Positions 15,538 through 17,796 of a stretch of DNA of 64,000 nt are shown in pieces. This DNA is from Vibrio ruber DSM 16370 (GTDB lineage Bacteria; Pseudomonadota; Gammaproteobacteria; Enterobacterales; Vibrionaceae): the NCBI RefSeq assembly GCF_900163965.1, contig NZ_FULE01000014.1, forward strand, positions 248,001 through 312,000. Direction: 5' to 3'. The stretch's first letter is position 1. Each line of letters begins with the position of its first letter. The notes under the pieces were generated by a model that saw only the letters and a program-made list of their open reading frames with translations, was not told the DNA's origin and made no database searches. The position numbers and the translations under genes were made by a program.

Positions 15538-15563
15538 GTCAGCAACTCCCTTTCTATTTCTGA

Positions 15564-15591
15564 AAAGCGGCTCTCCAGCCGCTTTTTTTAT
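15564..15591 (+). terminator. Intrinsic terminator of purMN
   Basis: Stem AAAGCGGCT and AGCCGCTTT with loop CTCC, ending in a T-run. It cleanly separates purMN from the cassette that follows. Confidence 0.92.
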
Positions 15592-15694: not shown

Positions 15695-15723
15695 TTGCAT
15701 AATAACAATACAAAGACTATGGT
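15695..15723 (+). promoter_or_regulatory. Candidate promoter of the radical SAM operon
   Basis: TTGCAT (15695-15700) and TATGGT (15718-15723) with a 17-bp spacer, 30 bp before the first gene. It is a moderate sigma-70 match. With the purMN terminator upstream, the operon needs its own promoter in this 160-bp gap. Confidence 0.4.
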
Positions 15724-15753
15724 TATTAGAATGCAAATAGACTGGATATAAAT

Positions 15754-16623
15754 ATGTTAGATATCAATACATTATTATTAGATTTCCGTATTACTTCTTA
15801 TTGCAATCTCGACTGTGACTTATGCTTCAGAAATCCCGGCATTGCAGACCAATCAACCGAAAGTGCATTGAAGGTATTAGATAAAATGTACCAAGTCGGA
15901 TTCCGTCGCGTCGGGTTCACCGGTGGAGAGCCCACCACCAGAAAAGATTTTCTCGTCTTAATTGAACACGCCAAAAAACTCGGCTTTATGACTTATCTGT
16001 CAACCGTCGGTCACCGCTTCATTATGGACCACGAGCGGTTAAACGGTGTGCTGGACTGGGTTGGAATGCCCATTGATGGGATAGAAAAACAAACCAACTG
16101 TGATATCAGAAGTGACAAGATGGGAAATCAGCATCGCGTGATCAAAGATATCCTGACTTGGTTATCACAGACAAATAACACCATTAATATCAAACTTACT
16201 ACTGTTGTTTCTCAAACCAATGCACATCAAATCTCCGACATTGTGCGCTGGGTAAATAGTTTCCCCTATAAAATTCAGTCGTGGCGATTTTATCAGTTTT
16301 GTCCGCTCGGCGTGGGTAAAGAAAAACGAGATAAGTTAGAAATCGATACTGACTTATTTATCAGCACAATGAAGCAGACAAAAAATGAATTTCCGGATCT
16401 GCCACTGAGCTGGGCAACTTTTGAAGAACGTGACAAAGCCAATATTGTGATGGAGCCCAACTTTGATGTCATTATTCCCGACGGTGAAAACTATACCTAT
16501 CTGTGTAATATGGAAAAAGACTCTCCGGAACAAATTATTCACCATATTTTTGGTCAGCCTGAAATTATGCAGAAATGTGAAAACAATCGATTCTGGCTCG
16601 ATGAAATGGAGTTTGTCTCATGA
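15754..16623 (+). CDS. Radical SAM enzyme, possibly viperin/MoaA-like
   Basis: A 289-aa radical SAM protein. The [4Fe-4S] motif CNLDCDLC has cysteines at residues 17, 21 and 24 (CxxxCxxC), followed by Phe25 as in most members. The AdoMet-binding GGEP is at 57-60. The core runs to about residue 200. The C-terminal part has WRFYQFCPLGVG and a hydrophobic-acidic stretch before YLCNM, an order that recalls the C-terminal substrate region of viperins, but no SPASM-type Cys cluster is present. Because it is coupled to a nucleotide kinase and a NUDIX hydrolase, a nucleotide is the likely substrate. Alternatives are a MoaA-like or unrelated sugar- or peptide-modifying enzyme. The ribosome binding site is weak and the gene looks AT-richer than its neighbours, which suggests transfer. 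It overlaps the next gene by 4 bp (ATGA). Confidence 0.85.
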   Translation: MLDINTLLLDFRITSYCNLDCDLCFRNPGIADQSTESALKVLDKMYQVGFRRVGFTGGEPTTRKDFLVLIEHAKKLGFMTYLSTVGHRFIMDHERLNGVLDWVGMPIDGIEKQTNCDIRSDKMGNQHRVIKDILTWLSQTNNTINIKLTTVVSQTNAHQISDIVRWVNSFPYKIQSWRFYQFCPLGVGKEKRDKLEIDTDLFISTMKQTKNEFPDLPLSWATFEERDKANIVMEPNFDVIIPDGENYTYLCNMEKDSPEQIIHHIFGQPEIMQKCENNRFWLDEMEFVS

Positions 16624-17360
16624 ATAAACACCACCTCTATACCCCGCCATGGGCAAGCAGTGAATTACCGGATATACAGGATGCCCACCCGGTATATATT
16701 GTCCTGTCCGGTAACTCTGGTGTTGGGAAAAGCACATTACTCCGTTCGATCTCCACCCATATTTATGAAAATAATTCCCGGACAATTGCGATTGATGAAA
16801 AATCACTTCATCATCCATTACTACAAGACCTTTTTGATAAGCCAGCAACGTATGGCTATCCGTTACAGCTTAATTTTATGATCCAACGAGTGCTGCTGGT
16901 TAAATCTTGGCTAGATAAAGGCGTTAATGTTATTATGGAACGCTCTCATATTGAGGATTATATATTTGCAAATTTTATGTATAAGCAAAAATATATATCC
17001 AGAGAACAGCATCAAGCGTATATGTCTTTATGGCATCAACTCACGGATATAATCCCCGATCCTGATGTGATTGTTTACATGAATTTTCCACCCGAATTTT
17101 CATTAAAAAATTTATCCAATGATGAGTCAAAAGGCATTCGTCCCCGGGAATTTCCTGATGAAGCAACCAAACAACGCTGGATTCATGGTTGGGGAGAAGA
17201 ATATCAGTCACTGATTGATAACTTACCGACGCATTTGAAAGAGCGAGTCGTTGAATACAATCAGCAAATGACCGTTGAAACCATTACCAATCTCGTGATT
17301 AATAAAATTCAGAATAAACAGGAGCCTTTATGCGACAGCGAACTATTGTTTGCCCCTTGA
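16620..17360 (+). CDS. Deoxynucleoside-kinase-like P-loop kinase
   Basis: A 246-aa P-loop kinase of the deoxynucleoside kinase type. The Walker A loop is GNSGVGKST (31-39). The family's Y-x-x-x-LQ...R substrate helix is seen as [13 protein letters not shown] (78-90), and the E-R-S motif at 107-109 ([12 protein letters not shown]) supplies the catalytic Arg region. A later [13 protein letters not shown] strand matches the dNK core. Members phosphorylate (deoxy)nucleosides to monophosphates, and the preferred base cannot be read here. It starts inside the radical SAM stop (4-bp overlap) with GGAG upstream, and its own end overlaps the NUDIX gene by 31 bp. The DNA is visibly AT-rich. A role in supplying or activating a nucleotide for the radical SAM enzyme is inferred. 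Confidence 0.82.
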
Positions 17361-17758
17361 TTACCAACAACGGGGATTACTTACTCTGTAAAATGGCGAG
17401 TGATCGCGGTGTATTCCCCGGTCAATGGGCACTTCCCGGAGGCGGAATGGAACCGGGAGAAACAATGGAAGAAGCATTAAAACGTGAAATCAGAGAAGAA
17501 TTAGGCCCCGACTTAGCGCTGACGCACATCTCCCCGTGGACATTCAGAGACGATACTCGGATCAAGACTTATCCAGACGGCAGTCAAGAAGAAATCTATA
17601 TGATTTATCTGATATTCGACTGTGAAAGCGCCAATCGTCATATTGCGATTAATGACGAGTTCCAAGAATTTAAATGGGCAAGCCCTGAAGAACTTCCCTC
17701 TCTGGATCTTAATGAGGCGACAAAAGTGACATTTGCACAAAAAGGACTACTGAAATAA
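17330..17758 (+). CDS. nudI: NUDIX nucleoside triphosphatase, NudI-like
   Basis: A 142-aa NUDIX hydrolase that is very similar in pattern to E. coli NudI (141 aa), which prefers pyrimidine dNTPs (dUTP, dTTP, dCTP) and releases pyrophosphate. The NUDIX box spans residues 38-59 in the form G-x5-E-x7-REI-x-EE-x-G. The N-terminus [11 protein letters not shown], the [15 protein letters not shown] segment and [12 protein letters not shown] are NudI-like. Its start lies within the kinase gene (31-bp overlap) with AGGAG at 6 nt, so translation is coupled. In this operon it may clean up or process a nucleotide product. The symbol is by resemblance, since the operon setting differs from the stand-alone E. 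coli gene. Confidence 0.85.
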
Positions 17759-17762
17759 TACC

Positions 17763-17796
17763 AGAGGCTTGCATATCGCAAGCCTCTATTATTCGT
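17763..17796 (+). terminator. Terminator-like hairpin after the cassette
   Basis: Perfect stem AGAGGCTTGC (17763-17772) and GCAAGCCTCT (17778-17787), followed by a broken T-rich stretch (ATTATTCGTATT). It lies 4 bp past the nudI-like stop. Confidence 0.65.

Follow-up and report, generated by a model that had tools for sequence, protein, structure and literature searches.

The closest described counterpart of the operon analysed here is thmA-thmB-thmC of Photorhabdus asymbiotica DSM 15149, reported as the cluster for 4′-thiothymidine (4′sT) biosynthesis and self-resistance (PMC12691670; mBio, October 2025). In that account, thmA encodes a radical S-adenosylmethionine (SAM) enzyme, thmB a distant homologue of AbmG and thmC a nucleoside triphosphatase. 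The genes thmA-C suffice for 4′sT production in Escherichia coli BL21(DE3) (minimum inhibitory concentration, MIC, 0.125 µg/mL), and thmC alone lifts the MIC above 128 µg/mL and leaves susceptibility to azidothymidine (AZT) unchanged. Target cells phosphorylate 4′sT via thymidine salvage (Tdk) and build it into their DNA, the MIC being 0.0625 to 0.125 µg/mL on K-12 and B strains, and most other species tested were not susceptible (PMC12691670). The same paper already mentions homologous trios in Enterobacterales and Vibrio. Here, we examine such a trio in Vibrio ruber DSM 16370, on contig NZ_FULE01000014.1, where three overlapping genes encode a radical SAM protein, a deoxynucleoside-kinase-like protein and a NudI-like NUDIX protein. 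The stretch of DNA analysed comprises 64,000 nucleotides (positions 248,001 to 312,000 of the contig) and is called the window; loci from other records carry our own numbers (L002 and so on). A preliminary description had read the genes as one nucleoside pathway and as a possibly antiviral bacterial counterpart of viperin and its partner kinase CMPK2. The first idea is borne out and the second is not: because the trio matches the published thmABC, the system is a known one and the window holds a further member. The trio is very probably a laterally acquired, self-contained thmABC-type operon for a 4′-thio-2′-deoxynucleoside antibiotic, with 4′sT as the most likely product.

The trio and its match to thmABC

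All three genes lie on the + strand, overlapping by 4 bp (radical SAM and kinase genes) and 31 bp (kinase and NudI genes). The list of open reading frames (ORFs) in the window and the family scans confirm these overlaps as first described, along with the CxxxCxxC motif, the dNK-like kinase and the NudI-like gene.

15754..16623, + strand: thmA homologue, a viperin-fold radical SAM protein of 289 aa, with CxxxCxxC (CNLDCDLC) at residues 17-24
16620..17360, + strand: thmB homologue, a kinase of the deoxynucleoside-kinase family, AbmG type, 246 aa, with P-loop GNSGVGKST
17330..17758, + strand: thmC homologue, a NudI-family nucleoside triphosphatase of 142 aa, probably for self-resistance, matching NF012016

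The radical SAM protein scores 44.6 bits on PF04055 (Radical_SAM; cut-off 29.5), the kinase 80.7 bits on PF01712 (dNK; cut-off 27) and the NUDIX protein 253.9 bits on NF012016 (NudI), above the curated cut-off of 95. Against P. asymbiotica DSM 15149 (locus L012), the three proteins are 66.4, 49.6 and 66.7% identical over 289, 246 and 141 aligned residues, with 192 of the 289 ThmA positions identical. The order of radical SAM, AbmG-like kinase and NudI-like genes is the same, and each protein is homologous over its full length. Like the Photorhabdus cluster, the Vibrio operon has these three families in this order, no other commonly shared gene, and a sporadic occurrence among differing neighbours; it differs in occupying a chromosomal site between purN and yafJ and in having a kinase that is only 50% identical.

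A search of genome_contigs with the radical SAM protein returned 11 loci, one from Vibrio and ten from Enterobacterales (Enterobacter, Rahnella, Siccibacter, two Xenorhabdus, Erwinia, Edwardsiella, two Photorhabdus and Acerihabitans). All three genes stand in the same order in 10 of the 11, which argues against a chance arrangement and supplies the recurrence in other genomes that the preliminary description had called for. In the eleventh locus (L005, on a 4207-base contig), the kinase match covers only 162 residues and NudI is absent, the cassette being cut or damaged within the kinase gene. Two of the ten full trios (L013 and L014) have an interrupted radical SAM frame. The nearest named trio record is that of Vibrio sp. 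MEBiC08052 (L004), whose radical SAM protein is 97% identical. Conservation does not extend to the 31-bp overlap, the distance between kinase end and NudI start ranging from an 80-base gap to a 35-base overlap across 13 loci.

The kinase and the NUDIX protein

AbmG of the albomycin pathway comes first for the window kinase both in phmmer (134.5 bits to PDB 8j5e) and in Foldseek, where a kinase model of mean predicted local distance difference test (pLDDT) 84.0 places AbmG at ranks 1-4 (E 1.8e-15 to 3.8e-13), followed by a Giardia deoxyadenosine kinase (4.8e-10). With a dNK domain and AbmG as its nearest relative of known structure, the protein is an AbmG-like kinase. The PDB titles of AbmG name complexes with 4′-thiocytidine, 4′-hydroxy-4′-thiocytidine, its 5′-diphosphate, and cytidine with ADP; because these complexes hold thiocytidines, the window kinase points to a 4′-thionucleoside pathway separately from the thm paper. 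The window operon resembles the albomycin pathway in its AbmG-like kinase and, presumably, in the insertion of sulfur into the sugar ring, but its radical SAM protein is nearer the viperin fold (best Z-score 22.0) than AbmM (8wm2, Z 15.1), to which phmmer finds a match of 62 residues (E 2.4e-4). The text of PMC12691670 reports no significant homology of ThmA to AbmM. Two Erwiniaceae plasmids (L029, 3050-8690; L030, 3037-8684) share a resembling gene order in which most genes are uncharacterised; a histidine phosphatase, an upstream VOC protein and a kinase distantly related to ThmB (28-31%) are among the products. These clusters were considered as candidate relatives and set aside. They possibly form another nucleoside pathway; in L030, five of the eight scanned proteins had no Pfam match, and no radical SAM or NUDIX family appeared among the eight.

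The role that the preliminary description gave to the NUDIX protein, dealing with the active nucleotide, agrees with the resistance that P. asymbiotica thmC confers on E. coli (PMC12691670). E. coli NudI (YfaO) is 70.9% identical to the window ThmC and 65.2% to that of P. asymbiotica. A standalone NudI from an E. coli chromosome (L085, 400-825) shares 65.2-74.5% identity with 13 of the 14 ThmC proteins from cassettes and 62.4% with the Edwardsiella one. In a comparison of 14 ThmC with 3 NudI proteins, the tree did not separate the two and no discriminating residues were found. Matches to nudI occur in 5358 of 5426 E. coli genomes, nearly all of them chromosomal nudI among the matches listed; in one E. 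coli record, NudI stands alone between yfaZ and ais, unlike the window ThmC. The enzyme is recorded as a dCTP and dUTP diphosphatase (PMC5389931). Its physiological role may be tied to thionucleosides. Strain K-12 presumably carries nudI. The sensitivity of K-12 to 4′sT (PMC12691670) counts against such a link.

Identity of the product

Several points weigh against our assignment. PMC12691670 calls the compounds of homologous clusters uncharacterised, and the sole Vibrio tested there is insensitive to 4′sT (MIC >128 µg/mL), so that a use against neighbouring vibrios is unsupported. Production of 4′sT, like protection by thmC, was shown for the P. asymbiotica genes. With the window ThmB only 50% identical, the base could differ, AbmG acting on cytidine-type compounds. 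Moreover, because E. coli NudI is so similar to ThmC, unseparated from it in the tree and near-universal, NudI identity alone is no proof of a resistance role.

The alternative that survives best is a thmABC-type operon whose product is another 4′-modified nucleoside such as 4′-thio-2′-deoxycytidine. ThmB is the fastest-diverging of the three proteins (49.6% against 66-67%), AbmG binds cytidine compounds, the recorded activity of E. coli NudI is on dCTP and dUTP (PMC5389931), and the products of homologous clusters are left open in PMC12691670. Set against this are the good conservation of ThmC and of ThmA, with its 192 of 289 positions identical to P. asymbiotica, and we regard a different product as unlikely, though it deserves serious weight. 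An operon for 4′sT stays the preferred reading.

The radical SAM protein: a predicted viperin-like fold outside the pVip clade

A model of ThmA (mean pLDDT 71.8, 57 of 289 residues below 50, from an alignment of 10 sequences) finds 11 viperin entries as its best folds, with Z 19.5-22.0 and a root mean square deviation of 3.3-3.5 over 239-271 residues, followed by SuiB (17.7), DesII (15.9), PqqE (15.7), SkfB (15.5), BlsE (15.3), MoaA (15.1) and AbmM (15.1). Foldseek also places viperins first, so the fold is viperin-like over the whole chain. In a family profile search of PDB sequences, 9 of 15 matches were viperins or, where an entry is named simply as a radical SAM domain protein, viperin-like by their fold-search titles, and a profile-profile comparison of the trio proteins with six prokaryotic viperins (pVips), made with viperins alone, aligned residues 5-250 at a probability of 99.6. 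The viperin-like layout noted from the sequence is thus upheld by fold and profile. The lack of a SPASM-type cluster fits the length of 289 residues. Outside the cluster motif, all 12 trio proteins compared share only two cysteines (183 and 275), and five of the pVip rows have no cysteine at either position.

Membership of the viperins themselves is another matter. The viperin model NF038283 does match ThmA, but at 86.8 bits the match stays below the curated cut-off of 180, and three reference pVips reach 327.7-342.9; other radical SAM proteins in a genome search score 76.7-82.6, hardly less than ThmA. On the PADLOC model PDLC02904, the window ThmA reaches 98.5 bits over residues 6-250 and three thmA proteins 98.5-104.9, compared with 259.1-369.5 for three true pVips, 62.5 for MoaA and 76.4 for another radical SAM protein (85.7 on PDLC02903). 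Since the pVip models match MoaA (E 1e-17 on PDLC02903/PDLC02904), the other radical SAM protein (8e-25) and thmA (1e-28 to 1e-30), a defence search by E-value alone would mislabel thmA as a pVip.

In a tree of 33 rows, in which bootstrap values had not settled and long branches were present, the pVips (7) and the trio proteins (12) form separate groups at 97/99 and 100/99. Without the four longest rows the pVip clade stands at 99/99, and trio and pVips fall weakly (69/27) on one side of a branch; in neither tree does ThmA lie within the pVip clade. Of the references, L018-L020 pass NF038283, and the annotations of L031 and L032 name a viperin. L033 bears a different annotation but reaches 318.6 bits on a pVip model, and L034 was assigned to the pVips by visual inspection and from its position in the tree. 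Because L032 and L033 are near-copies, the seven pVips amount to about six independent sequences.

Columns invariant in pVips and kept in 12 of 12 trio proteins comprise the three cysteines, GGEP (57-60), G77, G86, D108, R119, K147, T150, V151, N156, W177, P184, F202, N230, M233, P242 and G244, of which R119, K147, W177, N230 and M233 mark the likeness to viperin, the SAND enzyme and pVips. Fourteen columns invariant in 7 of 7 pVips are changed, however. Thirteen of the changes (N10D, H12R, A26R, N54G, A56T, S81Y, N85V, S106P, S109G, N149T, K178R, S236N and Y237F) are present in all 12 trio proteins; the fourteenth, E228K, is present in 11, the remaining one having N. Columns 62, 174, 198 and 239, also invariant in pVips, hold other, variable residues in the trio. 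Column 237 presumably corresponds to Tyr302 of mouse viperin and to the donor tyrosine of the SAND paper. That paper proposes a conserved tyrosine as proton/electron donor in dehydration and allows another residue for the proton. As its fold matches but cut-off, clade and residues do not, we place ThmA as a viperin-like fold and a possible but unproven sister of the viperins, not as a viperin.

A divergent pVip system, in which the radical SAM enzyme would supply an anti-phage ddh-nucleotide, the kinase would feed that enzyme and NudI would clear the product, would account for viperins being the best folds (Z 19.5-22.0), for the PDLC02904 match over residues 6-250 and for the parallel with pVips that have a kinase neighbour (L019, L032 and L033), of which the L032 and L033 kinases pass Pfam dNK. 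It is nonetheless very improbable: the PDLC02904 scores of thmA lie far closer to those of MoaA and another radical SAM protein than to true pVips, the pVips form a clade of their own in both trees, the fourteen changed columns include Tyr to Phe at 237, a scan of viral_contigs with two peptide patterns confirmed no relative, and the product of the P. asymbiotica homologues is an antibiotic (PMC12691670). The antiviral reading was rejected by clade, cut-off, residues and published product. The proposed likeness to the viperin/CMPK2 pair found no support either, the kinase being of AbmG type and only marginally similar to pVip-adjacent kinases (BLASTP E 0.026 for L032 and 0.052 for L019). The L032 and L033 kinases do pass Pfam thymidylate kinase (47.5 and 49.8 bits) and dNK (44.6 and 42.0 bits), and by these family matches they and the window kinase are kin at the broad-family level.

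The pVips with a kinase neighbour lie at L019 772-2385, L032 3325-4738 and L033 3317-4819, the neighbour being thymidylate-kinase-like in L032 and L033. Because L019 is another genome of the window's genus, a genuine pVip system does exist in that genus. Elsewhere in the V. ruber genome (G000:C57, 15230-17198; L054 and L055), two adjacent radical SAM genes possibly form a peptide maturation locus.

Distribution and mobility

The radical SAM protein is very sporadic: at E 1e-15, three of the 197 family genomes have it, this genome included, and at E 1e-20 one of 394 in the order sample as the tool defines it, namely this genome. At E 1e-13, a class sample gave matches in 7 of 274 genomes: this one, L034 (read as a pVip) and five where the match is partial and falls in an open frame of 385-471 aa. 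When ORFs of at least 80 aa from 15 regions were clustered, the only families in more than two regions were those of the trio, present in 13-15, and no fourth conserved gene such as an exporter or regulator was found among them; since the trio families alone recur in this way, the trio is a mobile unit.

The insertion site agrees with this. In 20 other genomes of the genus, purN was found at 19 loci, and yafJ follows it directly, with no trio, in 15; in three it lies outside the fetched stretch and in one it is 1.3 kb away. On this arrangement of neighbours, the trio is a clean gain. The G+C content of the trio is 41.0% against 47-48% in both flanks, and is lower in 5 of 124 windows of 2 kb. 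Of 148 genomes from the order, three have a protein above the NudI cut-off, among them this genome by way of its cassette copy; by this count, NudI arrived with the cassette.

Among the matches listed for 5,426 E. coli genomes, three plasmid records carry all three genes (L015, 10004-12001; L016, 10004-12014; L116, 7872-9869), ranked above the rows with nudI only, and two of the trio-bearing plasmids are predicted conjugative. E. coli itself may make a thionucleoside against E. coli. On our reading, the operon is a compact mobile unit that combines antibiotic synthesis with self-resistance and reaches Vibrio chromosomes and E. coli plasmids alike. An ordinary nucleotide salvage or pool-sanitising operon, although kinase and NudI act by family on deoxynucleosides and dNTPs, is scarcely credible for genes that are this rare (3/197 and 1/394, this genome included), that ride on plasmids predicted conjugative and whose homologue makes an antibiotic, and we know of no place for a radical SAM enzyme in such an operon.

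Colicin K immunity and pore-forming colicin genes lie 3-4 kb from the trio in L015, and lasso-peptide genes and a microcin immunity gene 1-6 kb from it in L016. A Pantoea plasmid holds a remnant in which the radical SAM gene is broken, the kinase undetectable and nudI whole. In Edwardsiella ictaluri (L010, 2787-3872), the radical SAM frame stays open upstream into sequence that by eye resembles CdiA VENN, and the cassette sits in an apparent contact-dependent-inhibition locus. The scan of viral_contigs with two peptide patterns matched 20 stretches, none coding for a relative, and five phage records gave only partial matches of 22-39% identity; a viral origin was rejected on these scans.

Proposed pathway

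The viperin fold suggests a route to the thiosugar. Viperin abstracts H4′. By analogy, ThmA would form a sugar radical at C4′ and exchange the ring oxygen for sulfur, which could come from its own cluster or via C183/C275. The first source would parallel AbmM, for which sulfur from the enzyme's own cluster is reported (discussion of PMC12691670). ThmB would then, as judged from AbmG, phosphorylate the thio intermediate and dehydrate it, completing the thiosugar, and host enzymes would finish and release the nucleoside, the cassette encoding no exporter among the ORFs surveyed. ThmC would hydrolyse the antibiotic triphosphate and so protect the producer, while target cells would phosphorylate the nucleoside by thymidine salvage and put it into DNA.

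We tentatively suggest, as a possibility short of an even chance, that ThmA is a viperin-fold enzyme turned sulfur inserter, which would keep the viperin-type C4′ radical, replace Tyr with Phe, acquire Cys183 and Cys275 and forgo dehydration. If so, sulfur-for-oxygen exchange arose twice, in AbmM and on a viperin scaffold, and a nucleotide enzyme of immunity would be kin to one that makes an antibiotic. The link offers a mechanism for ThmA, makes its sulfur chemistry testable and fits the reported lack of homology to AbmM. The word viperin does not occur in the main text of PMC12691670, and no statement of the link was found in the open-licence titles and abstract openings searched. By further extension, the standalone NudI of E. 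coli might be a stray or domesticated thmC.

Upstream repeat and flanking features

An inverted repeat precedes the operon.

15701..15727, + strand: inverted repeat AATAACAAT-N9-ATGGTTATT, candidate operator, 0 mismatches to the pattern

Its half-sites, ATAAC[AC]A and TGGTTAT, start 52-71 nt upstream of thmA, and the full pattern matches once in the window against 0.05 expected. Of 16 aligned upstream regions, four of them close Vibrio copies, 8 (the window, L002, L003, L006, L007, L009, L015 and L016) have both half-sites exact at a spacing of exactly 11 nt, and 12 have no more than one mismatch in either half-site; in L005, L011, L012 and L014, which include two Photorhabdus, one half-site is degenerate. 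Since Edwardsiella L010 showed no sign of the repeat, it was left out of this alignment. The cassette encodes no regulator among ORFs of at least 80 aa in the 15 regions, and therefore a host protein may read the repeat. A regulon search gave one other genomic site, at the end of a U32-peptidase-like gene beside a MATE-like gene (both named by eye), which was rejected as a regulon member and taken as chance.

The operon is flanked by purM-purN on one side and convergent yafJ-gmhA on the other, as named from the window translations, with a hairpin at either boundary.

17763..17787, + strand: terminator-like hairpin from the terminator scan, between the operon and the convergent yafJ-like gene
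15563..15589, + strand: terminator-like hairpin after purN, a perfect 10-bp inverted repeat with a 4-base loop and a T-rich end

The terminator scan of the region found two sites, one per strand, against 2.0 expected in shuffles, a weak result taken alone. The hairpin at 15563..15589 is missing from the list of this simple scan; as a candidate terminator, it would set the trio apart from the pur genes.

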